The notes beneath the pieces are model-generated. The model had not been told where the DNA came from, did not search any database, and worked only from the letters and a program-made list of their open reading frames with translations. DNA of 25,310 nt from Chrysochromulina tobinii (taxonomy: Eukaryota; Haptophyta; Prymnesiales; Chrysochromulinaceae). The stretch covers positions 1 through 25,310 of the forward strand of contig JWZX01002259.1 of the NCBI GenBank assembly GCA_001275005.1, written 5' to 3'. The translations under genes were made by a program, and so were the position numbers. Within the stretch, counting starts at the first letter, position 1. Every line of letters begins with the position of its first letter. Of this stretch, positions 4,306 through 20,300 are shown piece by piece.

Positions 4306-6222
4306 TCAGCGCTGCACCGCCTTGTATGTCCGCCTAACTGGCTCTGGGTGCCTCTTTGCCATCAAGCAGTACTCGGCGTACACGTTGCGTCGCGCGGAGA
4401 GCCCGGGGATGAAAAAGGCCCGCGCGAGCGTGCTCGTCGAGCGGCTGGCGTCTAGGAAGGGCGCGCAATACACGCGCTCCCAGTTCGCCGCATCCTGCAC
4501 CACACTGGGCTCCGCCTGCCCCGCCAGATCGAGGTCGACGAAGTACCTACACTGCTCCTTCCCAGCATAGCGCGTCGGCTCCTCTTTGTTCAAGTCGTTC
4601 ATGTTCGCCGGCGTCGTCCACAGACCCTTCGGCCAGGGCGCGTACGGCTGTGGCAGCTGGCCAGTGAAGCCGCCGCGTACCCAGAGCAGCGGCGCCGCCC
4701 CGGGTGCCAAGAAGAAGGTCGACGGGAACCGATACCACTCCTTCCCCACGCACACGTGGGTCGCGCTCGCTGGAAGCTTCGCATACACTTCTAGCGGTGC
4801 GCCGTAGTAGGCGACTAGCGCCGCACTCCGCGCGGCGCACAGCGCCACTGAGACTACGACGACCAGCGCGCAGCCCACGCGCAAGCTGCCCGCGACGGCG
4901 CGCCGCCCTCGCGGAGCCAAAGTGCCCAGACGCGTGGCAGTTACGCCATCGGCGAAGGCGGCGAGGGCGGCGTCGAGGGTGAGCGCGGCGCCCAGGCATA
5001 GGGTGGGGTACACCATCGTGAGGAAGCGCTCCTGGGCACGGCATGCGACGAGGCGCAACATTGCATTCGGTCGCACTCAGTCGCACTCAGTCGCAATCGG
5101 TCGCAATCGGTCGCACTCAGTCGCAATCGGTCGCACTCGGTCGCACTCGGTTGCACTCACCTCCTTGTGTGCCATCGGCTGCAGCACCATAAAAGTGAGG
5201 TACCTGATGAGGGAGGCCATCAGGGGCTCGTCAGTGGCCATCAGTGGTCCTCCTCATCGATCGAGCACTGAGCGGTTCGGTCGCGAGCGGTAGGTCTACA
5301 TGCCCGAGAGCATAAGGGTCGCATGCAACTTTCGAGCGCGTGCGCCCGGCAGCGCGAGGATCGCAAAGAGAGAGCCCAGCCCGAGGAGCGCGAGCACGTT
5401 GAAGTTGAGCAGCAGGTTGCGCGGGTAGAAGCTCCAGGGCTCCTCGCCGTACAGGTTGGCGCCCTGCCCGCCGCCGCCACGGCCGAAGGCGTTGTATGCG
5501 AGGAAGTTGCCTACGGCCCACACTGGGTGCCCAGCGCCGTAGTACAGGTAGCCGTCGATGAGGGCGGGCACGAGGCCGAAGGCAAGCAAGCCAAACACGG
5601 CACAGCCGGCCACCGCCGCCGGTCCAATCGTGAGCAACGCGTGCACGCCCATCGGGATGAACATGGGCGCAACAATGGGCCAGACTAGCACGACGACAAA
5701 GGTGCCGCACAGCAGCCCCGTGCGCGGCCTGTTCGAGAGCCACGCAGCGTAGCCGAGAAGGACGCCGTACATGCATGTCGTGCTCGGCAGTAGCGCCACA
5801 CCGGAGTGGAACATGCCGCTGCTCGCGCCGAGGAAGATGAGGAGCAACGCCGCAGCCCGCGTGCCAAAGGCGCCGGCGACCGCGCGGCAGAAGAGCGCCT
5901 CGCTCGTCGCGCACACGACGGCGAGGCACTGGCGCAGCGCAAAGAAAGCGCTAGTGCCCGAGGCGAGCGAGCCGGGCAGGACGCGCAGCATACGCAGCAC
6001 GACCGCGTGCAGCTCGATGTAGACATAGGAGCGCAGCGCAAACTGCGGTGAGTACTCCCACGTTTGGAAGCCCTTGCCGTTCAGCACATAGTGGAGCGGC
6101 TCCCAGTAGTTGAAAGTCTCGTCACAATCCATGATCGGCGCGCGCGCGGCCGCGAGCAGCCGCACCGCGAGCAGCGCGGTGAAGCCGATGAGGAAGAGCG
6201 CCGTCGTCGGAGGTTCCACCAT
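4306..6222 (-). CDS. ALG9: ALG9-type dolichyl-P-Man alpha-1,2-mannosyltransferase (GT22), 3 exons
   Basis: Spliced exons 6222-5300, 5203-5161 and 5031-4306 give 563 residues, the usual ALG9 length. The enzyme adds alpha-1,2-mannose from dolichol-phosphate mannose to the lipid-linked oligosaccharide in the ER lumen during N-glycan assembly. Evidence: the GT22 signature DETFNYWEP at residues 34-42 just after the first hydrophobic helix; many membrane helices; the conserved HKEERF at residues 320-325, restored exactly across intron 2; and the C-terminal family blocks CVGKEWYRFPS and MNDLNKEEPTRY. The middle exon is only 43 bases but keeps the frame. The ATG at 6222 gives the expected N terminus. 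The gene is strongly recognised; the main uncertainty is the exact exon edges, though they restore family motifs. Confidence 0.93.
5032..5160 (-). other. ALG9 intron 2, made of decamer repeats
   Basis: Donor GTGAGT, acceptor GTGCCCAG. About ten 10-bp units of the GACCGAGTGC / GACTGAGTGC type fill 5061-5160, close to the whole intron. This decamer differs from the TGATGACCTC type in other introns, and the acceptor is not the conserved CTCATCAG module. Its removal joins HKE to ERF, restoring the family motif. Confidence 0.88.
5204..5299 (-). other. ALG9 intron 1, introner-like 3' end
   Basis: Donor GTAGAC; acceptor GCCTCCCTCATCAG, the module shared with introns of unrelated genes in this window. 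The length is 96 bases. No long duplication of exon sequence flanks it, which would fit an older insertion. Splicing restores the frame with the codon AT|G. Confidence 0.85.
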
Positions 6223-6587
6223 TTTATTGCGTATCTCATCAACCTAGACGCCAGTTGCTCTCTTTCTCTCTCTCAGCCTTTCGCACATTCACCGCCACAC
6301 GTTCCACGATCAATTCAACATCAACCACAAAATCAACATCAACATCAACACTCGATGCTTCGATCGTGCATCGTCGTTCGTCGAGTGTTCCTCACTTCCT
6401 CTCGATGCCCCACACGCACCTGCAATAGTACGTGTCGGCGGTTGGGCCATGTCATACATTTCTACTCACAACTGAACTCAGATCTCATCTCACAGACTCT
6501 CTGTGTATCTTCACATGACACGTTGGTAGGCCCGTTTGTACTCAGTGGAGTTGTACTCACTACTCACTACTCAGCAATGCGGAGCAC
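6223..6587. other. Intergenic region with short ATCAAC repeat
   Basis: This region lies upstream of ALG9 and downstream of the Ser-rich gene (both on the minus strand). It holds a pyrimidine-rich tract near 6256-6275 and an imperfect (ATCAAC)n repeat at about 6317-6353. No gene is visible. The ALG9 promoter should be here. Confidence 0.5.
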
Positions 6588-7400
6588 TCAGTCGCACGCG
6601 GATGCCTCGATCGCCTCCAAATCAAGCTCCCCCGACAGCAGATCCTCAACCTCGGTGGGCGAGGGCGGCCGAACCAGCGCGGCAGTTAGCGTCGACGCGC
6701 CGGTCTTCTGACGCAGGGCGGCGACCATCTTCACGGTCATCATCTTCGTCGGCGGCGTTGGGTTCGGTTTCGTGGCGACCAACTCAGGGACCACCAAGCG
6801 AGCAGTGGAACCCCACGCCACCGCACCCGTCGACCTGAGCGTCGAGAGCGAAGCGGCATACGAGGAGACGGGGCATACGAGGAGACGGGGCTGCTGGCTC
6901 TCGCGCCCAGTCGTGGCAAAGGTGCCGTGCTGCTTGAGAGTGAAGCTGCTGCTCTTGGTTAGGTAGCTATGCGTAGGCGCCACGCCGGCCTTGGCAGTAT
7001 CCGGGCGGATGACGCTGCTAAACTTGGTCACGCCCGATGTCTTGAGAGTGCTGCGAGGCTCTGCGTAGTGCGCAGGCGTGGCCTCGAGCGCGCCGGGCAC
7101 GCGGAGCTCGCGCCCAGCCGTGGCAAACGAGGAGGCGCCCGGCTTGGCGGAGAAGGGCTTGAGGCTGGAGTAGCTTGAGACAGGGCAAAGGTCGGGGAGC
7201 TTGTTGCGCTCGAGTTTAGCGCGGCCGAACGTGCCCGAGGACTGTGACCTATGGAGGCTGCGGTGGCGTGCGCGCGGAGACGTAGGAAGCGACATCATGC
7301 GCGGGCTGGACTCGCGCGACGGGCGAAGGGACGCCGGCATGGAGGACGACTTGATGGGAAGGTAGTAGTTGAGCGGCTCGGTGGTGACTATCATCGCCAT
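6588..7400 (-). CDS. Hypothetical Ser-rich protein with internal repeats
   Basis: The product is 270 residues from the first in-frame ATG (7398-7400); a second ATG follows two codons later. I do not recognise the family. The sequence is Ser/Thr/Pro/Arg-rich. It contains about three diverged copies of a module: a segment like GTFATTGRE or SFATAGREL, a spacer, CPVSSY (twice), then S-T-L-R/K-S/T-G. The repeats look like a short linear-motif array in a largely disordered protein. The C terminus (about the last 25 residues) is acidic and helical. There is no signal peptide or membrane segment. Codon-like composition and the repeat conservation support it being a real protein. Confidence 0.6.
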   Translation of the reverse strand: MAMIVTTEPLNYYLPIKSSSMPASLRPSRESSPRMMSLPTSPRARHRSLHRSQSSGTFGRAKLERNKLPDLCPVSSYSSLKPFSAKPGASSFATAGRELRVPGALEATPAHYAEPRSTLKTSGVTKFSSVIRPDTAKAGVAPTHSYLTKSSSFTLKQHGTFATTGRESQQPRLLVCPVSSYAASLSTLRSTGAVAWGSTARLVVPELVATKPNPTPPTKMMTVKMVAALRQKTGASTLTAALVRPPSPTEVEDLLSGELDLEAIEASACD

Positions 7401-7557
7401 GACTTGTTTGTTGTTTGGGTTGCGTGTCGGGCGGGCGATGCGATGCTTTCGGCGGGACGATCGGGTTTGGTGCCGTTGAGTCAACGCTTCCGGGTTGGGA
7501 ACCCGGGCATTTCGTCATTCCGGACAGATCCTCGTTCAGTGCATATTTGCAACGAGA

Positions 7558-8519
7558 TCAAACTCTTGGTCGTTTTGTTCTGGAGCTTTTCGAGCTACCG
7601 TGTACTAGCACACTGTATGTGACGTTGACATTTGACATATTGACGTGTAGCCCACCACGGTACCGGTAGCACAGCACGAGATCCCTGAGCTCAAGATTGT
7701 CGACTTGGTTGCATTCGCGATCAGTGTTGTCAAAGTAGCTCATTGATTTTTTTTGACCTTCGTAGACACTTGATTTCACGTCGCCTCGAGTCATCTTGAC
7801 CGCTGCGAACCGCTCGCGTGATTGGATGTGGTAGTGGTTCAAAACCAAAGGCGGTTGCTGGTCGGGCATCAGCCATTGTTTCGACATGCTGTGCCACATG
7901 AGTGGATGATGGACCCAGAAGGATCTCAAGGCGTTTGTTCGGGCAATGTACTTGGTCAAGCTGTGGGGGGTTGCCGCAGCGCGTGTGAAGTTGATGCGCA
8001 CACTTGGAGGTTGTACAGTGTGGCCGCTGCTGCCGAACACCTGCCAGTGCAGGAGGAGGTATGTGGATAGGCAGTCTGTCTGCTCCACGTGGCGGATGTA
8101 CGCCGGAATGTTTTCGAAGCCAGCACGTGGCGATGCGTATACGAACTCGTCGACATCAATTTGCATCGCCCATCGCGCGCGAGCTTGGATTATAGTCAGC
8201 CATGATGTGACGTGACGCTCCTGCTGGTAAGGAACTGGATCACTTCGCACGGAGACATGCTTGGCGAAAGGAGCCACGGCTCTTTGCCAGTCGTCTGTCG
8301 AGTTGTTGTCGATGAGGAAAAAGTGCTCGACTCCTTGCCACAGATGGTGCTCGACTCCGGCAATATATCGGCCTCATTCTTGAAGATCCCAACCACGACG
8401 AGGAAGAAGCGCTCTGAATCACTCGCAATTGCACACAGCTTCTCCCTCTGAAGCTCAGCGTCACGAGTGCTATTCCAGCCATGAGGATGGTTGCCAAGTA
8501 TCGCGATCAGCGTGGTCAT
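7558..8519 (-). pseudogene. GT2/GT92-like glycosyltransferase with a one-base frame break
   Basis: From ATG 8519, the first 55 residues end in VVVGIFKNEADILPE. From 8352 another frame continues with EHHLWQGVEHFFLIDNNSTDD to a stop at 7558, about 264 residues. The two parts are clearly one protein: KNEAD, DNNSTDD and QIDVDEF are the nucleotide-sugar-binding and metal-binding blocks of GT-A fold enzymes related to GT92 and the glycosyltransferase 2-like (DUF23-type) group. The break lies at about 8350-8357, and the total length is one base short of a multiple of three. No intron can be fitted there. It may be a recent pseudogene or a sequencing error. The frame after the break is otherwise intact, with no further stops. 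It is intronless and less GC-rich than the ALDH and PPR genes. Confidence 0.75.
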
Positions 8520-8551
8520 TGCCCGGGACCCGGAGAAGGCCAAAAGTTCTG

Positions 8552-8929
8552 TAGGAAGGTGTTTCCAAGCTACTGGGCGGGGCTCGGCTACTGGGCGAGC
8601 CGCACTCGCCGCAGTGCGGTCCCGCGCGACCACTGATCGGTCGATTTTCCTTGCGCAGTTGCGGACGCTGCTGCGGTCTAAAGCGGTCGTTTACCGGTAC
8701 CGGTATTTATTTACAGAACCGAATTTGCCGCGCTGCGCGGTCGATTTCCTCCGCACTGCGGTCGATTCCCCCGCAGAGCGGTAGCGTTTTCGGGCGCAGT
8801 GCGGTCCGCAAACACCGCACTGGCGACTGGGGTACCGCAGTGCGGTCGAGTTCCCCCGTGCCCCGACCCCCGCTCCCAGTGCCGAGCCGCGAGCCCCGCC
8901 CAGTTGCTTGGAAACCCCCGCCCTTCCTA
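8552..8929. mobile_element. Imperfect foldback (MITE-like) element
   Basis: The outer about 45 bases form an inverted repeat: TAGGAAGG, a short gap, then TTTCCAAGC(T/A)ACTGGGCGGGG at 8552-8584, matched in reverse complement at 8898-8929. The interior is a cluster of short CCGCAGTGCGG / CCGCACTGCGG palindromes and GCGGTCGATT-type repeats. There is no transposase. It lies directly upstream of the frame-broken glycosyltransferase start codon, and would extend that frame only through non-ATG codons. Target-site duplications are not evident. A non-autonomous DNA transposon or foldback element is the best reading. Confidence 0.5.
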
Positions 8930-9374
8930 TCGCGGTTTTGCGGCTAGACCGGCGCTTCCCCCCTAGTGTCTTCTAAAACCGGTACAGTACAGCAGTATAC
9001 TTCAAGAATCGAACCGAGGCTCACGTCACCGACGCGCGACGCACGCGCGCGCGCGCACGGGCCACGCCAAGAAACCGAACGCCGGTGCCCATACGTCGGC
9101 CGACTCAGAACAAGAGGCCGCCCCCCGCGAACCCGATCCGGCCCCCATCTTCCGCTCCCAGAGCTAAAAGCACCCCGCGCCTGCTCAAAGGCGGTAGGCG
9201 AGATGAAGGCACGCGCCGCTGACGCGTTGCGGCCGGCGGCCCGCGGAACCCCCAAAGAGCTCGAGACGCGAGAGGCGGACGACGGGCGTGCGCCACAGCC
9301 GCGGCGAAGCCGACCACCTGGGAGCGCAACGTCGAGATGCAGATCAATCACTAGCGGTACAGCCCCCCCTCTCG
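8930..9374. other. Intergenic region, no gene seen
   Basis: This is the 3' flank of the aldehyde dehydrogenase gene. It contains an ACCGGTAC string near 8979 and a short (CG)n run near 9045. The open frames give Arg/Pro-rich translations without domains. I see no RNA gene. Confidence 0.5.
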
Positions 9375-11593
9375 CTAACGCGGCCAACCAGACACCGCCT
9401 TCACCTCGAGGAACTCTCTGAGCCCAAACTCGCCGCCCTCGCGCCCGTTACCCGACGCCTTGACGCCGCCAAAAGGCGAGCGCGCGCTGCGCCGCTCGCC
9501 ATTCACCTCAACCATTCCGGCCTTGAGCTGCGGCACGACGCGCCGGATGCGATCGGCTGAGCCAGTCTGGAGGTACGAGGTGAGGCCATACCTGCAAGCA
9601 GCCACAGCAGAGGCGCTCAGCAGCACTCGGTGGCATTCAGAGGCACTGGGCGGCCGTCAGTGGCTGGTCTTACGGCGTGTCGTTGGCAAGGGCGATCGCC
9701 TCCTCCTCCGTATCAAACTTCGTCATCGCGAGGACCGGCCCGAAGATCTCTTCGCGCGAGATTGTCATATGCGGCCTCACATCGGCGAAGAGCGTGGGAC
9801 GGCAGTAAAAGCCGGGCGAGTCCTGTCATCCGAGGGAATCCGAGGAAATCAGCGGCGATCCAATCCGAGGCCACAATCCAAGGCCGAGGCAATCAGAGGC
9901 AATCAGAGGCAATCAGAGGCAATCAGAGGCAATCCGAGGCAATCAGAGGCGATCAGAGGCGATCAGAGGCGATCCGAGGCAGTGAGAGGCCAGTTGCGCA
10001 CGGTGGCACCTGCATGCTATGTGTGAGGTCATCAGAGGTCATCAGAGGTTATCAGAGACAGAGAGAGGCCAGTTGCGCCGGGTGGCACCTGCATGCTGAG
10101 GGGGCGGCCAAGCCCTCCCACAAGCAGACGCGCCCCTTCGGATATGCCCGACGCGATGAGCGACTGCACTTTGTCAAACTGAGCCGCTGAGGCTACAGGT
10201 CCGAGATGCGCGCCGTCCTGGTGAGGTGGTCCCACCTGAACGGCCGCGCATGCCTTGGTCGCCAGGGCCACTGCTTCATCATACACGCTCGCCTCGATCA
10301 GCATGCGAGAAGGCGCATTGCAGCTCTGTCCCGAGTTGCGCATCAAGTGGGAAACTCCGTGCTGGACAGCCTTTCCTAGCCCATCACCAAGGTCGGCAAA
10401 AAGCAGATTGGGGCCCTTTCCACCCAATTCCAATGTGACGCGCTTGACGCTGGCGGCCGCGGCCTTGCTGACCGCTACGCCCGCGCGAGTCGAGCCTGTG
10501 AACGAGACCATGTTGACGTCTCGATGCGCTGCGAGCGCTGCGCCGACGGTCGCGCCCGCGCCGTTGACGAGGTTGAACGAGCCTGTGAGGTCAGGTGAGG
10601 AGGTGAGGTCCTGTGAGGTCATCAGAGGTCCTGTGAGGTCATCAGAGGTCATCAGAGGTCCTGTGAGGTCATCAGAGGTCATCAAAGGTCATCAGAGGTC
10701 ATCAGAAGGTGCCTGAGAGGGAGAGCACCCGGTGGTCATCAGAGGGAGCCACTCCGTGGCACCCAGTGGCATCCGTGGCACTCAGAGGCGCCCAGTGGCT
10801 CCATCAGCCGCCCTACCCTTGGGAAAGTGTGAGGTCATCAGAGGTCATCAGAGGTCATCAGAGGTCATCAGAGGTCATCAGAGGTCATCAGAGGTCATCA
10901 GAGGTCATCAGAGGTCATCAGAGGTCATCAGAGGTCATCAGCCGCCCTACCCTTGGGGAAGCCCGCGGCGTCGATGAGCTCGGCAAAGAGAAGAGACGAG
11001 AGCGGCGCAATCTCGCTCGGCTTGAGGACGACAGTGTTGCCTGCGGCAAGGGCGGGAACCACTTTGAGCATCACTTGGTTCATCGGCCAATTCCACGGCG
11101 TGATGCATGCGCACACGCCGAGCGGCTCCCACAGGAGGGCCTCCTTAGCGCCGAGCGTCGAGAAGTCCTCGAACTCAAAGGCGTCGAGCACGCTGATGAA
11201 GGTCTTCAGGTGGCTGAGCCCCGCCGCTGCCTGCGCGGTCCGAGCGAGTGAGCGAGGCGCTCCCATTTCGGACGAGATGGCGTCTGCCATCTCCGCTGCA
11301 CGGCTCTCATAAAGGCTAGCGAGTCGTTTCATCAGCTCGAGCCGCGTGGCCTTGGTCGTAGCGCGCCAGCTATCGGAGGCCAACCGCGCTGCAGCCACGG
11401 CCGCATCGACGTCCTGAAAGGTGCCGAGTGCCAGCGTGCCAATCGCAGCACCCGTGGCTGGATTAGTGATGTCCATCGATGTAGAACTTGGACGATGGAC
11501 AACACCATCCCAGCCACCGTCGCGCGGTGCGACCCATGAGCCGTCGATGTAGAATTTGGACGTGTGTAGCCGGCGATGGATGGCTTTCAGCAT
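9375..11593 (-). CDS. NAD(P)-dependent aldehyde dehydrogenase, 4 exons
   Basis: Exons 11593-10951, 10582-10089, 9822-9674 and 9591-9375 join in frame to 500 residues, the usual family length. The enzyme oxidises an aldehyde to its acid with NAD(P)+. Visible: PWNWP cofactor-site block, FTGST at 242-246, catalytic Glu266 in ELGGKGPN, catalytic Cys302 in NSGQSCNA, then EEIFGPV and the C-terminal [16 protein letters not shown]. All junctions restore family sequence, e.g. [11 protein letters not shown] and NDTP|YGLTS. The start [13 protein letters not shown] is short and basic, so mitochondrial import is possible but unproven. Substrate cannot be told. The N-terminal linker before NPATG is about 10 residues longer than typical. 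Only 65 bases separate its ATG from the stop of the upstream C2 gene. Confidence 0.93.
9592..9673 (-). other. ALDH intron 3
   Basis: Donor GTAAGA, acceptor GGCTGCTTGCAG, 82 bases. It contains degenerate 10-bp-spaced CACTC/GAGTGC-like units but not the conserved CTCATCAG module. Splicing joins codon CC|G and restores P-Y-G-L. Confidence 0.88.
9823..10088 (-). other. ALDH intron 2 with decamer array and a copied splice donor
   Basis: Donor GTGCCA, acceptor GGATGACAG, 266 bases, phase 0. Positions 9891-9990 hold ten 10-bp units of the AATCAGAGGC type on the + strand (five perfect). A 35-base segment spanning the exon end and donor (10063-10097) is copied inside the intron at 9984-10018 with 33/35 identity, so a second candidate donor exists at about 10009. 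Confidence 0.87.
10583..10950 (-). other. ALDH intron 1 with a perfect decamer array
   Basis: Donor GTAGGG, acceptor GACCTCACAG, 368 bases, the longest intron here. It contains eleven exact tandem copies of GAGGTCATCA (+ strand) at 10831-10940 and a mixed array at about 10600-10706. The exon end plus donor is duplicated inside the intron (10802-10823 copies 10936-10957, 22 bases identical). Confidence 0.88.
10831..10940 (-). repeat. 11 perfect copies of a 10-bp repeat
   Basis: GAGGTCATCA on the + strand (TGATGACCTC in the sense of the gene) occurs eleven times with no mismatch. It lies wholly within ALDH intron 1. Confidence 0.97.
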
Positions 11594-11614
11594 GATTAGG
11601 TCGAGAAACTCCAA

Positions 11615-11635
11615 TTCACACACGCTGTGTGTGAA
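11615..11635. other. Perfect hairpin between the C2 and ALDH genes
   Basis: TTCACACAC, loop GCT, GTGTGTGAA gives a 9-bp perfect stem with a 3-base loop. It sits in the 65-base gap between the stop codon of the C2 gene (11659) and the ATG of ALDH (11593), both on the minus strand. It could act in 3' end formation or simply be a transcription-factor palindrome. Confidence 0.6.
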
Positions 11636-11658
11636 GAAGTGCGTGTTACCTTCACGCT

Positions 11659-14600
11659 TCAGACGAATTCGGCCTTGAACTCGACGTGCACGTGCTTGCC
11701 CATGCCGGAGCCCTTGCGGCCGATGAGCTTCACAGTGTGCACGCCGCCGGCCGCGTTCAGGCGCACGTCCTCAAACGCGAGCGCGTCGTCATCGCTCCTC
11801 GTGTCCTCATCCCAGAGACCAATAGCGAGGAGCGGCGGGCGCGCCGATCCGCGCGGCAGTGCGAGGGTCAGCGTGAGGGTGCCCCAATCCGCCTTGGTCG
11901 CGTTCTGAATGGTGGGCGTGACCACGGAGGTGGAGGTGGCCTCATGGCCCCCAGCATGCGTCGAGTCCAAGTCATCCTCGCCTGTCTCGAGCAGGCTGAA
12001 GCGTATGTAGGGGTCCTGGAGTGCTCCCGCCGCGCCCGGAACGGCGCCCGGGCTCTTGGCGCCGGCACTCTTGCCTCCCAAGCTCTTGCCCCCCGGACTC
12101 TTGCCTCCTTTGCTTTTGGGCTCGGGCAGCCCCGAAACTTTGACCCCGCTGAGGAGGAGCGTCGCCGCGGGTGCGATGGACGTCGATAATTCAAATCGGA
12201 AGCTGACAGTACAGTCCTTGCCCGCGAAGTCGCCGACACCCTTGACGAGCAGCTCGTCGATGGCGCCGTACCGGGCGTCGCCCGTAGGCGGATCGAAGAG
12301 GAGCGTCACCTCAGCCTCACCGAGCAACTCATCCACACCTGTCAGGTCCTTGTCATACACGCGCACACGCAGTTGCGGGGCGCGATCCATGGCGGCAGCG
12401 GTGCCTGCACGCAGCAGCAGCTGGACCTCGTCGACGTACACCGGGTTGAGATTGTTGTACACCGGCCGCGTGCGCGCCGTCGTGGGCGCGACCCCAGGCC
12501 GCCCGTTGAGCAGCGTGAACTGCACGTACGGATCCGACGTCTTTGCCTTGTCGGCCGCGGGCACGCCGTGCGCACTGATGGCACTCACAATCAAGGTGAG
12601 CTCGCGCTCGCGCCGCTCCTTATCCTCTCGCTCCGCCCTTTCACGGGCAGCCCGCTCAGCCTCCAAACGCTCGCGTTCCAAACGCTCCGCCTCCGCCTTC
12701 GCTGCCGCCTCCGCGCGCTCCGCCTCCGCCTCCGCTGCCGCCTCCGCCACTTTGCGCGCCCTCTCGGCCTCAAGCCGCTCAGCCTCAAGCCGCTCAGCCT
12801 CGAGCCTCTCTCTTCTGAGCCGCTCCGCCTCCAAGAGCGCTGCCTCGAGCGCTGCCCGCCTCTCCGCCTCCGCCTTCTCGGCGCTCAGCCGCGCCGCCTC
12901 CGCCGCCAGGCGCGCCGCCTCGAGCGCTTCCCGCCGCGCTCTCTCCGCCTTCGCGCGTCCTTCCTTGCCACGCTGGCGTGCCTGATGAGGGAGGCAATAA
13001 GATTTCATCAGCGGTCATCAGCGGTCTTTAGAGGTCATCAGAGGTCATCAGAGGTCATCAGAGGTCATCAGAGGTCATCAGAGGCCTTCAGAGGCCATCA
13101 GAGGTCATCAGAGGTCATCAGAGGTCTTCCTTGCCACGCTGGCGTGCCTGGATGCGCGTGGCTGCGGCCGCTAGACGCGCCTCGTCGCGAGCTCTCTCCG
13201 CCTTAGCGCGCCCTTGAATGCCGCGCTGGCGTGCCTGGATGCGGCTCGCTGTCGCGTGCAGCCTCGCCATTTGCGCCGCCTCCTCCGCCAGACGCGCTGC
13301 CTCGAGCGCTTCGAGCTTGGCCCTCTCTACCGCCAGTCGTCGCTCCTCCCTCACCTGATGAGGGAGGCAATCAGAGTTCATCAGAGGTCATCAGAGGTCA
13401 TCAGATGCCAGTCGTCGCTCCTCCCTCACCTGATGAGGGAGGCAATCAGAGTTCATCAGTGGTCATCAGAGGTCATCAGATGCCAGTCGTCGCTCCTCTC
13501 TCACCTGAATCTCGGCTTCTCGCACCCTCTTCGCCTCCTCCCTTGCCTCCTCCTCTGCCGCCGCCTTCAACGCGGCCTTTTGTGTGGCCTGTTCTCGCTC
13601 GGCTGCTCTTCTCTCGCCCTCGAGGAAGTCGAGCACCCTGGCCTTCTCGGCGGCAGCGACCTCCTCGGCCACCCTGAGAGTGTAGTAGCGCCCCTCCGCG
13701 CGCATGTTGCGACGCACGATGTTGTGGAACGACTTGAGGGCATCGATCTCGCCCTTGGGGCTCATGGCCATCAACGAGAGAGAATCCGGTCTCCCCGTGA
13801 CTTCCATATTTGGGACACGGCTCGTGAGGGCCAGCTGGCGCCCGCTACGGCGCCCAGGGCTCTCAGAGAGGCCGAACGGAGTGCTGCCGGTAGAGTAAGA
13901 GGAGCCCGGGCGAGCGGTGGCGGCGGCACCTATGGCGGCATGTCGTCTGACGGCTGGCCGGTCCTCCGCGCCATACTCCTCGTCCTGCTGAAGCTGCTTC
14001 ATCGGACCGACGGACGTGTCGGGCGCGACGGCGGAGGGGCGCTTCGGAGGTGCGAGTAAAGGATAGACGCTGCTCAACTCCATCTCACTGAGCCCCCAGT
14101 GATTGGAGCGTGACGCTACGGTGGGCTCGTACAGTCGGCTGGCGACGCTGGCTGCGGGCATGTGTTGACGGGGCGCGGGCGCCGCCGCTGCCGCCGCCGC
14201 TGCCGCAGCTATGTCAGACGCTGCCGCGGTCGCAGGCGCCGCAACTGCAGTGTCGGCAATAGCCTCAGCCGTCTCAGGCACGGCCTCTGAGGGCCCATCG
14301 AAAAGCGATGGGTGCAGCTCGCCAAGACGGCTAGCCTGTGGCGGCATGGTGACCTTCTTGCTGCGAGCCCCTCGACCCTTGGACCTGTCGGAAGGTGGAG
14401 ACTCGCCCTTGAACCCACCGTTGGAAGTGGGAGATCTGACTGGCGACTTGATGGGCGAGGGCGGGGATTTGATGGGCGAAGGTGTGGATTTGATGGGCGG
14501 GCGTGAAGCCCTCTTCTGGAGTGAGCCAGGCGAAGACGAGGGGACTGAGCCAGGCGAAGACGAGGGGGACTGATCCTCCGTGCCATCCGCAGCACCCGTA

Positions 14601-14680
14601 ACAGCTGTGCCTTCATCGGCCTTGGCCTTGGCCTTCTCCTTCGCTATCAAGCGCATTCTTAGGGAGCGGGTGTCGCGCAT
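11659..14680 (-). CDS. Coiled-coil protein with IQ motifs and two C2 domains, 3 exons
   Basis: Exons 14680-13505, 13354-13148 and 12981-11659 give 901 residues. The N-terminal 320 residues are disordered: SPIKSP repeats, poly-Ala, Ser/Pro. From about 325 to 587 comes a charged Glu/Arg/Ala helix, with two IQ motifs (SRIQARQRGIQGRAKAE near 428-444 and TRIQARQRGKEGRAKAE near 457-473, the second rebuilt across intron 2). A C2 domain follows at about 588-710, with SDPYV and VYDKDLTGVDELLG as likely Ca2+ loops. A diverged second C2 lies at about 720-895 (DPYIRF, LWDEDTRSDDD) with a Lys/Gly/Ser-rich insert. This suggests a Ca2+/calmodulin- and membrane-linked scaffold (inference). The start is the first ATG; the frame stays open 37 codons further to a TAG at 14792, so it may continue from the gene upstream. 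Confidence 0.8.
12982..13147 (-). other. C2-gene intron 2: GC-AG introner-like intron with 25-bp flank duplication
   Basis: The acceptor is TTATTGCCTCCCTCATCAG, the shared module. The donor is GC (CAG|GCACGC), needed to rebuild IQARQRGKE. The exon sequence at the acceptor side (12960-12984) is repeated exactly at the donor side (13126-13150), 25 bases. Between them are about twelve decamers (13001-13120), seven of them the exact GAGGTCATCA. Confidence 0.88.
13355..13504 (-). other. C2-gene intron 1: two tandem 75-bp introner-like units
   Basis: Two 75-base units, each made of a 23-base copy of exon sequence (starting GTGAGG or GTGAGA in sense) and a 52-base element ending CATCAG. The 52-base elements differ at one base. 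The exon copy also occurs once after the last acceptor (13332-13354). Splicing from 13504 to 13355 joins ...EIQ to VREERRL. Within the intron, 13430|13429 is an abutting CAG|GTGAGG junction, a zero-length exon. Retention would introduce a TGA. Confidence 0.88.
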
Positions 14681-14845
14681 GCCCCCTGGATTGATCTGAA
14701 TGGACGGGCGGCGTTCGACCGGATTGATGCCGTCGCACGAGTCGGCCCCGGCCCGCACGAGGCCCGAGGCATCGTCGATGTTCGGCGAAAACTAATCAAG
14801 TTTCCAAGTTTTAGCCAATTTGGGGAAATCTCGTATCTCGAGGCC

Positions 14846-17049
14846 CTACACGTGCTGCTGCACTGACAGGGTCGGCACCGCAGCCCCAGACAGATTGCCG
14901 GCGCCAGGTGCAGAAGCAGAGACTTCTCCCACTCTTTCCTTATCCCACCGGGCCGCTTTCGAGGCACATCGGCGTGCCGAGCCCTGGTAGTGGTCGTGAG
15001 AGCCTTTCTCATACGCGGGGCGCTGCTGTACCCGCTCCCACGCGTCCTTGTGAGCGCGCCTCTCCGCGCTTCGACGGGCCGAACTCGAAGCTGAGCCGGG
15101 GTGCTGTGAACGTTCACAGCCGGGGTGCTGCTGCTGATGCTGACCCAGTGGAAGCGCCGGTACGCTCGCTCTGACCGCCGTTCGGCGGAAGCGCTCTCTC
15201 ACTTGATGGACCACGCCCGTAAGCAGCTCGTCCACCTTGAGATGGTCCCCCTCAGGCGTGACCTCTGGCGCACCTAGCAGGCGGCGCACGGCCCGACGCC
15301 TCGACGAGCGAGCTCGCTCGGAGGGTGAGCGCTCCATAATTGGTAAGGGCGAGCCCTCCATGTGTGGCACATCCGACGTGCCGGGCGACGTGCTCGACTC
15401 TCGACCACCCGCCCGCGACGCAGATGCAGGTCCATCTGCTAAAGGTCCTTCAGATGCAGCCGCGGCTGGTGCCGGTGCACCTTTTAAGGCACCTTCGGTA
15501 ACGTCACCTTCGACTCGACCCTTGGGCTTGGCAACCACTGGAGGTGGCTCCACGCCCTCGACCGCGCCCTTCGCCTTCCCCTTGGCATGCGCCTCGGCAT
15601 ACGGCATGCCGCTTTTCATGCCGCTTTCGTCGCTATGATCGCCGGCTCGGGCGTCGTCTCGGGCGTCGGCATCCTTCTCCCGGAGGTCCGCAGCGGCCAT
15701 CGCTTGCAATCGATCTGAGACGCGTAAAGCGACGCGCTGTCTCCCGACGGTCACCTCGGTACGCAACCGCCGTCTCTCCGCCTCGATCAGCAACATGTGC
15801 TTCGGCGGGTCGCTGTTCGTGCACACGCGCTGCATCGCGAGCCCCTCTCGGTACGCGAGGGCGTCCTCCGCCCAGTGCTCCGGGGTGACGGCGATCGATC
15901 CCTTGAGCGCGGCGGGCACGTAACGGTAAGTCCCACGGTCCCAAATCGGGCGGCCCGAGTTCTCCGCGTACACCGCATCCTCCGCCATGCGTCGCCGGAG
16001 CCCATCGGCCACGGAGTGGTTTTGGCCGTCGTCGAGGCGACGTAGGGAGTCGGTCGCGACGTACCTGATGAGGGAGGCAATCATATGTCATCATAGGCAA
16101 TCAACATAGGGCACTCAGAGGCGACGTAGGGAGTCGGTCGCGACGTACCTGATGAGGGAGGCAATCATATATCATCAGAGGCAATCAACATAGGGCACTC
16201 AGAGGGCACTCAGAGGCGACGTAGGGAGTCGGTCGCGACGTACCCGACGCCATAGTACACGTTGCCGCCGAGCCTGCCCACGTCTACCACACTCCGGCTG
16301 AGACCTTCGGTGGGCGGCAGGCTGGCGGCTGGCACGCTGCTCGTGTCCGGGCTCGTGTCCGTCGAGGCGCTCGCTGCGCCACCGCTCGTCGTGCTCGATA
16401 ACGTCGTCGACCGTCCCCGTCCCCGCCGCCGAGGAGTTGTGGTCGTGGAGGTGCGCCCGCCAACGTCGTGCAGCCGGCGGCGCAGCTCCGCGTTCGCGCG
16501 TGCATGCATGCGGCTCTCGCTCTCGCGACGCGCCTTTGCTTCGGCGGCCATCGCCCGGCGAATCTTGGCGACCTCCTCATCGGCCACATCTGAGTCGGTC
16601 CTTGACTTGACCGCGTGCATGGACGTTTGATTGAAGACGCTTGCCGGTGCGGTTGTGGAGCGTCTTAGCGGCGGGCGCGATGGCAGGCCAAACGGGCTCT
16701 CAAGCGGACTAGTGATCCGTGCGTGGCCCTGGTGGCTGAGTGCATCGAGGGCCTTGAGGACCTCGGGCTCGAAGGCAGCATGGTCGTTGGCTTTGCTCGC
16801 ACCCGTCGGCGGACTCGCACTCGTCGCAGCGGCGAGGAATGATGAGCCCATTGGGCTCTGCTGCCATCTCTTGCTCCGAGGATTCGTCGGCACGTCCTGT
16901 GGCAGGATGACCAGCGCATGATTCTCGTGCCACAGGGAGAAGATGTTCCGCCGGCGTCGCGCGCTGCGAGCTCGCGGCGTACTGCCACGAGCGCTCTTGG
17001 GCGGGAGGGGCGCGTAGGCACCAATACGAGTGCCCAGCAGTATCGACAT
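14846..17049 (-). CDS. Hypothetical basic/coiled-coil protein, 2 exons
   Basis: Exons 17049-16244 and 16064-14846 give 674 residues. I do not recognise the family. I choose the ATG at 17049 because a TATA box (17264-17270) predicts transcription starting near the earlier in-frame ATG at 17247; that one would add 66 residues. There is a Ser/Thr/Arg-rich N-terminal region, a helical Ala/Arg/Glu stretch, then a more ordered-looking block around the splice site (YYGVGYVATDSLRR, WDRGTYRYVPAALKG, HWAEDALAYREGLAMQ, PPKHMLLIEAERRRL). The C-terminal half is disordered, with Gln/His-rich segments. It may be the N-terminal part of the C2-domain gene downstream: a 60-base intron (14851-14792) would fuse them in frame. 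Confidence 0.6.
16065..16243 (-). other. Introner-like intron, duplicated, with three 31-bp exon copies
   Basis: Two tandem units of 84 and 95 bases. Each starts with the same 31-base exon copy (GTACGTCGCG... in sense) and ends TGATTGCCTCCCTCATCAG. The three 31-base copies (16034-16064, 16118-16148, 16213-16243) are identical. The elements differ by two substitutions and one extra 11-base repeat in the upstream unit. Splicing 16243 to 16065 joins GVG|YVATDSLRRL in frame. The junction 16149|16148 is CAG|GTACGT, a zero-length exon. Confidence 0.88.
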
Positions 17050-17263
17050 ATTGAGGGGCGCCCACAAGCGCCCAAGAGATGAGCCGATGAGCAAAAGCGC
17101 TCTCAGAGAATTGGACTGAATGGAGGCCGGAGACGTTTCACCTCGTTTAGGAACGTGTTCCCGCTTTCGCACGGCATGCAACGACCGCAAGACCTGTTTC
17201 GGCACAACGGCAAACAAACTGTTCGCAAAAATAGTCAAATACACCATCAGTTCTTATATATCA

Positions 17264-17270
17264 TTATATA
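17264..17270 (-). promoter_or_regulatory. TATA box of the 14846-17049 gene
   Basis: TATATAA on the minus strand, about 215 bases before the preferred ATG (17049), with a second TATATAAG-type string just downstream (17254-17260). It lies in the 330-base gap after the PPR gene stop codon. Confidence 0.5.
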
Positions 17271-17379
17271 CTCCCTCCAGCGCCGGCCAGACTCAATCGA
17301 CAACTTACGCGCGTCCACGTACTAGTAGACGCACGAACATGAGGCGACGAGGTTCACCTTTTGTCGCGTTCTACCGCGG

Positions 17380-20300
17380 TCACCTCGTGACGGCGCCCGG
17401 CGCGTCGATCCCCAGCCCTGCCAGGTCGATGCCATCGAGGGCGCCCTCACCCTCGGCCGCGCCGCCCCCCTCATCCCTGCCGCTCCTCGTACCTGAAGGC
17501 GCTCGAGATGGCCTGTCCTCTCGCATGCCAGCACCCCCGCGGCCGAGACCCTGTCCGCCGCGTCCGCCACCCCGTCCGCCGCCGCCGCGGCCGCCGCGCC
17601 CCCTGCCAGCCGAACGCTCCTGGTCCGTGCCGGTGCCCTCGCGTGAGGCAGGGCGCCACGCGCGCGCCATGACGTCCTCGGTAGTGATGGCGAGCGACCT
17701 GATGAGGGAGGCAATCAAAAGGTCATCAGAGGTCATCCGAGGTCATACGAAGCCATCGGGGGTGATGGCGAGCGACCTTTCCAAAAATGGTCGCTCCTCT
17801 TCCCCACACGACGAGAGGAGCGCGAACTGCACGTGCTCATCCGGAGTGAAGCCCTCCGCCTTCATCTCGTCCAGGAAGCTCACCGCCAGGTCGATATGGC
17901 CGCCCGTGCACGAGCCGTTGATCGCGGCGCGGTAGGTGGAGAACGAGGGCTTCACGTCCCGCTCGCGCATAGTGCCCAGCATGGCGCGCGCCTTTGTCAC
18001 CTCGCCTCCACGGCACAGGGCCCGCAATCCCGTGTTGTAGTTGACGAGGTTGGGCTCCACGCCCAGCATCGGCATCTGCTGGATCAGGCGCTCGATGATG
18101 TCGAACTTGTCCTGCCGCTCACACGCCTGCAGCAGCACATTGTACGTCGCCACATCTGGCAGCACCTCGAGCTTGTACCTAATTTGGGAGGCACTCGCAC
18201 GCAATTAAGGGCAATCAAGGACACTCAGGGGACCATCTGCCCGAGCTCGATGAGCGAGAGCAATTAAGGGCAATTGAGGGCAATTAAGGGCAATCAAGGA
18301 CACTCAGGGGACCATCTGCCCGAGCTCGGCCACGTACATGCGCTCGATGAGCGAGAGCGCGCGGTTGAGCTGGTTCGCGTTTGCGCACGCCATGAGCGCC
18401 GTGGTGAACGTCTTCGCATCCGGCTGCAGCCCGCGCTCCTGCATCTGCGTGAACAGCTTCATGACGAGAACCACGTCGCCCGAGCGGGCGCATGCATCGA
18501 TGACGCACCCATAGTCGAACGCGCTCGGCTCGGCGCCCTTGCGCAGCATTCGCCCTAGGACCTTCTGGGCGGCACGCGGCTGTTCGCCGGCCGCACAAGC
18601 ACGCAAGACCGCCGTGTACGTGTGCTTCGTCGGCGCGAGGGTCGGGTCGGCGAGGCGCACCCCCTCCGCTTCCATGTCGTCCATCAAGTCGATCGCTTGC
18701 AGCCATCGCTTCGCACGCGAGGCGGCGCCGATGGCCGCATTGTAACAAAAGGCATTGGGCTGCAGCCCTTCGGTGCGCATCTGCGCGAGCAGTTGGAGGA
18801 CCGTCTGGACGCGCCCATCGCGCGCGCATGCATTCATGACGTTGCCGTACACGAGCGTATCGGGCGCCAGACCCGCCTCGCGCATCATGCGCAGGATGTT
18901 GAGCGCGCGTCGCCACTCGCCCGAAACGTCGCACGCTCGCAGGGCATGCTTATACCCGGAGTCGTCGAAGATCACGCCGGCGCTGAGGCCCTCGTCAAAG
19001 GCGCGCAGCACCTGCGTGGCGCCCGTGAGCCGATCGGCGGGCCGGCCGCCCTTGTCGCCTCCCTCCGCCAGAGCGCGCATGAGCACATTGTACGTGAACG
19101 CGCCCACCTCCAGAGGCGGTGATTTCGCTTGCTCCTCCTTCATGAGATCCCACAGCATGCCCACCATCGCGGGCTGCTTCGCCTTGGCGCACGTGCGGAG
19201 CACACACTCAAATGTGCGCGCGGTCGGGCGCAGGCCCGAGCGCTTCATGCGATCGAGCAGCCCGAGGCTCTCCTGCCACCGGGTGCGTCGGTCGCATGCA
19301 CGGAGCACCGCGTCGAAATGAACGGCCTGGAGCATCACGCCATAATCCTCGAGCACGTTGAGCAGCTCCGCCCCCTGCTCCCACGCGCCCTCGTGGGCGC
19401 ACGCCACGAGCGCCGCCCGGTACACAGCCTCGTCCACTGGCGCCGAGCGCCGCCGCCATTTGCCGATCATCTCAAGCACCTTCGCGTGCTCGCCTTTGGA
19501 AGAGGCCCCGAAGAGGCTGCGACGTAACCCGTCGTTCGGGTCGTCGTGACGCGTCGTAGCGGGCGCCCGCGGCGGCGCTCCCCGCGGCGCCCGCCAGCCG
19601 CCAGCGTCCTGCTGGCCCGCACCGGCGGCGCCTCCTGCGGCCGGCCTGGGTGCGCCGCCGCCGCCAGCCGCACGTGGCTTGGGCTTTGGCTCCTCGTCCA
19701 CGGGGCCGAAGAGGTCCTGATGAGGGAAGCAATCAGTGGCACTGATCAGAGGCAATCAGAGACACTCAGGACTCCTCCGTGCTCTTCCATGCTCGTCAGT
19801 GGTCATACGAGTAGCACGCGCGCACCTCGAGCCACGCCTCATCGAAGCCGTCGGTGGCGAGCGGCGCGCCAGTGTCGCCCTCCGATGCATCTGCCGCGCT
19901 CGCGAGACTCGCGATCGTGTCGGCGAAGGGGTCGGGCGCTCCGCGTCGAGGAGCCGGCGAACCGAGCGGCCCGTCGAGGTCATCGAGGCTTGCCAAGGCG
20001 TCCGCGAGGCTTTCGTCCATGCCGTACGACTCGTACCTCCTACCCGGTGGCAGAGGCCCTGACGGGTCGTCCAGATCGCTCTCGAGATCGCTCAGCAGCT
20101 CGTCGAGCAGGCTGTCATCGCCGAGGGCGGCAGCGGCGCTGGCGTCGCGCCCGATAGCGCCCGCGTTGCCTGCGGAGGTGCCGTCGCCCATGGGCAGGTC
20201 ATCGTCCAGGGCGAGCGATCCGAGGAGCTCCGCATCATCGGCTGATGACGGCACAGGCCACGTATCGACGACGGCCTTGGGCGCGGGCGGCGTTGGAGCT

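Follow-up and report, generated by a model that had tools for sequence, protein, structure and literature searches.

Introns of the window

The window, by which we mean the whole stretch of 25,310 nucleotides analysed here (contig JWZX01002259.1, positions 1 to 25,310, of the Chrysochromulina tobinii assembly GCA_001275005.1), holds eight introns, in an ALG9-like gene, a C2-domain gene, an unnamed gene and SAP/PPR coding sequence, that end in the same 19-base tail, TGATTGCCTCCCTCATCAG. A first-pass annotation, made from the letters of the window, had delimited these introns and proposed that the tail marks an introner-like family of common descent. Inspection agreed with its limits for all eight introns, and a search allowing three mismatches found the tail where the annotation had placed it, with at most one mismatch (five copies exact, three with one mismatch), starting at 5204, 12982, 13355, 13430, 16065, 16149, 17699 and 19717, always on the minus strand, which is the strand of the genes concerned, whereas 100 shuffles gave none. 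These introns, together with one candidate member, are the following.

5204-5299, minus strand: intron of the ALG9-like gene, 96 nt, GT-AG (GTAGAC...CATCAG), with the 19-mer (one mismatch) at 5204-5222; Pfam Glyco_transf_22 on both exons
12982-13147, minus strand: intron of the C2-domain gene, 166 nt, GC-AG, with a decamer array (13005-13126) and the 19-mer; a 22-bp exact direct repeat, GCACGCCAGCGTGGCAAGGAAG, at both ends
13355-13429, minus strand: C2 gene, second of two tandem 75-nt units (repeat plus insert), with the exact 19-mer at 13355-13373
13430-13504, minus strand: C2 gene, first of the two tandem 75-nt units, with the repeat CAG/GTGAGAGAGGAGCGACGACTGGC (slash at the junction) and the exact 19-mer at 13430-13448
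16065-16148, minus strand: unnamed gene, second of two tandem units, 84 nt, with the exact 19-mer at 16065-16083, after which the 31-bp repeat forms exon sequence
16149-16243, minus strand: unnamed gene, first of the two tandem units, 95 nt, with the exact 19-mer at 16149-16167
17699-17776, minus strand: last intron of the PPR gene, 78 nt, made of a 21-bp repeat (two changes), decamers and the exact 19-mer at 17699-17717
18179-18192, minus strand: diverged tail GCCTCCCAAATTAG, a candidate member named by the first-pass annotation, whose presence was confirmed
19717-19825, minus strand: intron of the SAP/PPR gene, 109 nt, with the 19-mer (one mismatch) at 19717-19735; Pfam SAP and PPR on the exons

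The first-pass annotation was silent on a second feature of these introns, namely direct repeats that start exactly at the junction. Their length is 15 bp exact, or 21 bp with two changes, at 17699-17776, 23 bp in the pair at 13355-13504 and 31 bp in the pair at 16065-16243; a flanking direct repeat was also sought at 5204-5299 and 19717-19825 and none was found there.

The 19-base tail across the genome

Using the 19-mer with at most two mismatches, we searched the whole 53.15 Mb genome and found 3,713 places (1,815 forward and 1,898 reverse), while the reversed pattern gave 0 and 0. The motif is therefore not rare, and wherever a gene could be recognised it appears to lie at splice junctions and in the sense of the gene. 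A Pfam family was found in three of ten hand-picked sense open reading frames (ORFs), and the same ten stretches read antisense gave one sub-threshold match. As the first-pass annotation had stated, the tail carries its own AG and pyrimidine stretch, with TGAT as a putative branch site, and among AG-ending copies (at most three mismatches, from a sample blind to the downstream bases) GT or GC follows directly in 143 of 196. Similar introns stand at unrelated positions in unrelated genes.

Some observations concern the tail itself. At locus L011 some copies, accompanied by long repeats, read CATC and then continue with target bases (ACAGG, for example) where CATCAG would be expected, and at L012 (about 7786-8123) a gene resembling, by eye, a spliceosomal DEAH helicase holds several tail copies. 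Another sequence, CGCCCACCACAGCGCTC, was found with at most one mismatch at 138 places in the genome (reversed pattern 0 and 1), often clustered, for example at C44:9642, C992:9037 and C2161:2028. One exact-match scan of viral contigs for the tail found none, a scan that diverged copies would escape.

Direct repeats and intron anatomy

From the thousands of copies that exist we studied an anatomy sample of 284 AG-ending motif copies (at most three mismatches) in 105 loci covering 269 kb. Many of these loci were chosen because they hold the motif, and L055-L110 were chosen for GTRCG after it, so that the base frequencies given below come from a set made without that choice. In the common layout a stretch that repeats the beginning of the downstream exon is followed by a variable insert, the 19-mer and the exon itself, the inserts being largely decamers of the TGATNNCCTC type. 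A junction-anchored direct repeat with a score of at least 14 was detected for 141 of the 284 copies, compared with 1.9% of 1,395 mismatched pairs. We call clean the 75 of these 141 in which, in addition, the repeat is clear of the last 19 bases and no second motif lies inside; one clean row, from the window and with length 253, is a wrong choice of the program, the real intron being 12982-13147.

In the 75 clean single insertions the repeats measure 14-58 bp (median 28), apart from one of 77 that runs into decamers, and the target duplication is consequently neither short nor of fixed size. The repeat starts exactly after CATCAG (offset 0) in 62 of 80 repeat-flanked copies; the 18 other offsets look like noise, since they show no preference for the reading frame (5 in frame, 13 not). 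G immediately precedes the repeat in 84% and A stands two bases before it in 56%, and the repeat then opens with G in 86% and T in 82% (n=50 clean copies, without downstream choice); once targets preceded by another copy are removed, G stands at 80% and A at 46% (n=41). Even at targets that do not begin with GT or GC the preceding base was G in 13 of the 14 rows that could be placed by eye, nested or copy-preceded rows being left out, and at four non-GT sites the retained duplicate is, by eye, a multiple of three (33, 24, 24 and 21 nt). Because the repeats begin at the splice junction, the upstream repeat would supply the 5' splice site. Repeat-flanked copies have a 3' end fixed at CATCAG/exon and a 5' end that is variable and target-derived, and they offer no fixed 5' end to serve as a terminal inverted repeat.

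Intron length is narrowly distributed, with 71 of the 75 clean copies between 68 and 114 nt and four longer. The standard deviation among the 71 is 10.7, against 19.4 in 5,000 shuffles of repeats and inserts (lowest value 15.0), and none of them is shorter than 68 nt where 16 would be expected. Short introns do exist in the genome, for example of 48 nt in a Lon protease gene and of 51 nt at L103. This narrow distribution could be explained either by selection on intron length or by copying in register.

Decamers were also seen in two places of the window that lack the 19-base tail. An aldehyde dehydrogenase gene (10600-10960, minus strand) contains a decamer array (10831-10941, 11 units, all perfect) that has a direct repeat, TTYCCCAAGGGTAGGGCGGC, about 20 bp long, on either side, and the next ALG9 intron (5063-5158) is built of another decamer, GCACTCGGTC on the plus strand, and ends without the tail.

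Splicing at the predicted sites

The Lon protease gene (L028) allowed the splice sites to be checked against a protein. We removed six introns at the predicted sites, five of which end in the 19-mer or a close variant and the sixth, the one of 48 nt, in CTCATCAG; the joined protein aligns without gaps over 192 residues and six junctions to the solved Lon structure 3m6a (E 1.8e-76). Splicing at the predicted sites is thus probable on the strength of this protein continuity. Intron lengths modulo 3 are spread (14, 16 and 22 of 52). A reading-frame test on short flanks (6 of 52 open when unspliced, 39 of 52 when joined) was dropped as undiagnostic, because frame-shifted joins were equally open (39 and 37 of 52). 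In the same Lon gene two consecutive introns occupy one exon junction, the insertion lying exactly 3' of an existing intron, as it also does at L042.

Parent and daughter introns

Parents of individual introns were sought by comparing inserts across contigs and by one look-up with an exon scrap; the all-against-all scrap search was redone with the motif masked, the first version having been swamped by the motif, and the pairs given here are among the matches listed. A parent intron was identified for six daughter copies. L121 contains, between perfect 17-bp repeats, an identical copy of the 3'-terminal 56 nt of the 68-nt L079 intron, and the L121 insert holds GCTCCAGATGGACGGGC-type sequence, which in the parent L079 is exon. 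The FtsZ gene at L017 has received 68-70 nt of the 88-nt intron of L123, again identical, and this copy brings with it a scrap of parent exon, GAACTCCG. L059 is the parent of L002, and one intron of the Lon gene (third site) has given rise to copies at two other sites of the same gene, carrying CCGATTAC. Finally, L043 and L057 differ by one substitution over the whole intron, 113 nt from GT to CAG, between unrelated flanks; L043 is taken as the parent because the intron holds a diverged copy of L043's own exon.

Five of the six inserts carry exon scraps of the parent gene, and the sixth (L057) copies the whole intron. All six end at the parent's CATCAG, and at the other end none reaches beyond the 5' splice site of the parent; the few bases that also match past CATCAG do so because both exons start alike. 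Similarity to the parent is accordingly always present at the 3' end, and L043/L057 is the full-length exception in which it reaches both intron boundaries. The pairs show that introns are copied tail-first, from the 3' splice site leftwards, between genes.

A seventh pair, L107 and its putative daughter L106, is plausible and weaker. A stricter pair search returned 14 rows, comprising four of the six traced daughters, L107/L106 and nine that we did not count, as they rest on decamers or tandem copies; by its own thresholds this search missed L123/L017 and L043/L057. Near-identical stretches with the same insertion were seen on two contigs at L065 and L121, which are alleles or recent duplicates, and in one of them two bases of the repeat are changed and the insert has lost one base.

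Taken with the thousands of copies and their exact placement at the junction, parent-daughter introns between unrelated genes support the proposal that the eight introns of the window belong to an introner-like family, probably related by common descent through copying. The first-pass account of common descent is upheld to this extent; it had overlooked the duplicated target as the source of the 5' splice site, and also the nature of the copied unit, a pre-existing intron that has lost part of its 5' end.

Four quantitative relations bear on how the copying is done. In the five truncated daughters the number of parent bases lost and the length of the new repeat are 12/17, 20/21, 32/28, 32/32 and 18/22. 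Parent and daughter introns differ in length by 2.8 nt on average, a value reached by 0.7% of random draws. Parent and daughter agree over more leading junction bases than random pairs do (p 0.003). Mean resemblance between inserts is 0.26 within a contig and 0.12 across contigs, a difference reached by 5 of 2,000 permutations.

Possible mechanisms of spread

The explanation that we favour, tentatively and with somewhat less than even confidence, is that these introner-like spliceosomal introns spread by tail-first copying of existing introns via a template switch guided by the junction. Its visible steps can be followed in the alignments: the copy always ends at the parent's 3' splice site, CATCAG, and its 5' end can fall at any point within the parent intron but in no case upstream of that intron's 5' splice site; it is inserted into an exon, mostly after G or AG, the 14-58 bp downstream then being present before and after the insert; and the upstream copy of the repeat, which begins with GT or GC, would become the new 5' splice site, so that exact splicing restores the old coding sequence. 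We infer that a polymerase or reverse transcriptase would change from the target to an existing intron as its template, guided by the short stretch common to both junctions ((A)G/GTRCG-like), such microhomologies having been read by eye; if target and intron were left at roughly equal distances from their junctions when it switches back, the daughter would inherit the intron length of its parent. A template switch explains why lengths are related, why bases are shared, why related inserts cluster and why units occur in tandem. In a more specific form, the 5'-splice-site-like junction of the exon would pair with the matching junction of the intron, and copying in register, guided by homology, would take the 3' part of the intron while the first 15-35 bases of the target are kept; this form is possible, and we put it forward with more reserve.

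Several points weigh against the template switch. The length and shared-base tests were made after the fact on five pairs, two of which have the same parent and gene; the GTGCTC shared in the Lon pairs may be a Val-Leu codon pair; and the length of 80 for L059 to L002 is one of two choices, because two tandem copies are eligible as the parent. The narrow range of lengths could result from selection for introns of a workable size, although the genome does have introns as short as 48 and 51 nt. Of six blind searches that used an exon scrap to find the parent, one succeeded (L123/L017); of the other five, three gave none, one a common coding repeat and one two places with two mismatches, none of them a usable parent. 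Moreover, a template switch alone leaves the exact end at the 3' splice site unexplained.

This last property is best explained by retroposition of the kind used by long interspersed nuclear elements (LINEs), in which the free 3' end of an excised intron RNA would serve target-primed reverse transcription at a nick after (A)G, a second nick 14-58 bp away would produce the repeat, and an early stop of the reverse transcriptase would produce the 5' truncation; the exact end at the 3' splice site would then be the natural end of the excised intron. LINE-like retroposition classically leaves three marks, namely a fixed 3' end, a 5' end that varies and target repeats that differ in length, and all three are seen here. 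The genome also contains 26 RVT_1 matches, 22 of them over the cut-off; one, at L053, is LINE-like by eye and lies on a contig (C1746) that stops before the 3' end of the element. What LINE-like retroposition does not predict is that repeat length follows the 5' part lost, that the sum of repeat and insert is nearly constant, or that related inserts cluster on one contig; we regard it as a doubtful yet serious alternative to the template switch. Inspection of other reverse transcriptase ORFs by eye suggested a Ty3-like element at L049 and another type of retroelement at L052.

Classical intron transposition, that is reverse splicing into another transcript followed by reverse transcription and recombination with the gene, would fit the boundary-to-boundary copy of the 113-nt intron of L043 in L057 and those insertions that lie exactly at an existing exon-exon junction, as at L042 and the Lon-gene site. 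It predicts precise insertion without a target repeat, whereas such a repeat flanks every second copy of the sample, and among the six traced daughters five lack the 5' part of the parent; the full-length copy is one case of six, and the GTGCGC shared there also fits a 6-bp duplication. We consider this route unlikely. Less likely again is tandem duplication of exon segments with minisatellite growth of the TGATNNCCTC decamer and no transfer between genes. Tandem repeat-plus-insert units at 13355-13504 and 16065-16243 and the common decamer arrays in introns speak for it, but scraps of parent exons appear on other contigs, within genes unrelated to the parent's, and one insert lying between two repeats is no tandem duplication. 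Duplication with minisatellite growth is contradicted as the only process and is likely as a secondary one. A cut-and-paste DNA transposon, as in MITE-like introners with terminal inverted repeats and a fixed target duplication, has precedents in many introners described in PMC9860276; here the target repeats vary from 14 to 58 bp and there is no fixed 5' end to form a terminal inverted repeat, and this highly improbable candidate was rejected on the variable 5' end. Chance or convergence of strong 3' splice sites, to which a shared pyrimidine stretch and AG, and nothing more, could be ascribed, has a negligible probability against 3,713 places versus 0 for the reversed pattern and was rejected on that control.

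Relation to described introners and significance

Introners are described with target duplications of 3-9 bp and often with inverted repeats; in some of them the duplication provides one of the two splice sites (PMC9860276). Those of Symbiodinium (Gozashti et al. 2022, PMC9860276) likewise occur in many genes and obtain one splice site from a target duplication, of 4 bp. The same study shows Chrysochromulina sp. introners, from Tara assemblies and a marine environmental algal genome, in which the target duplication likewise supplies one splice site; according to that description they differ in a 4-bp duplication and in an element that carries the 5' and not the 3' splice site. By comparison with the terminal inverted repeats and 3-9 bp duplications reported there, the family described here has repeats of 14-58 bp, no fixed 5' end and traceable parents.

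Micromonas introners (PMC3879977) and fungal introner-like elements (PMC4457414) resemble the present family in being near-identical introns, in gene sense, in unrelated genes. The Micromonas authors propose spread by reverse splicing, and long target repeats and 5'-truncated chimeric copies like those found here are unmentioned in the descriptions consulted for both groups. Amoebophrya introners (PMC7789003) share direct repeats at the exon-intron borders and a low family resemblance, and differ, as described, in direct repeats of 3-5 nt, inverted repeats of 8-20 nt and non-canonical splice sites. According to a review of intron gain (PMC3443670), introns may arise by transposition, by tandem duplication of AGGT or by break repair, each being a route of its own. 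In gain by AGGT duplication or break repair, a duplicated exon piece likewise gives a splice site at AG/GT, but in our case the repeats enclose foreign intron sequence that has a conserved tail, and as far as that review describes the three routes, the introner-like family here combines traits of all of them.

Our literature search turned up no description of long target repeats combined with parents that can be traced, most subscription papers lying outside the search. A 2025 study by Gozashti and colleagues reportedly derives introners from diverse transposons, including retrotransposons, and may overlap with the present family.

The 2022 survey required similarity near both intron ends, which is a rule of detection and not a biological definition, and removed low-complexity families (PMC9860276). 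By these rules as described, a family such as this one would probably have been excluded, and intron gain of this kind may therefore be under-counted.

The birth of spliceosomal introns is a long-standing question, and the same review calls the molecular route of intron transposition unknown (PMC3443670). Because the copied stretch, its exact 3' limit, the truncation point and the parent gene can be read for individual introns, the rival mechanisms become testable by counting. If the proposed copying is correct, every new intron would be a chimera with the length of its parent and a scrap of the parent gene's exon, made with neither a transposase nor a mobile element of its own, and a single genome would be enough to read intron genealogies.

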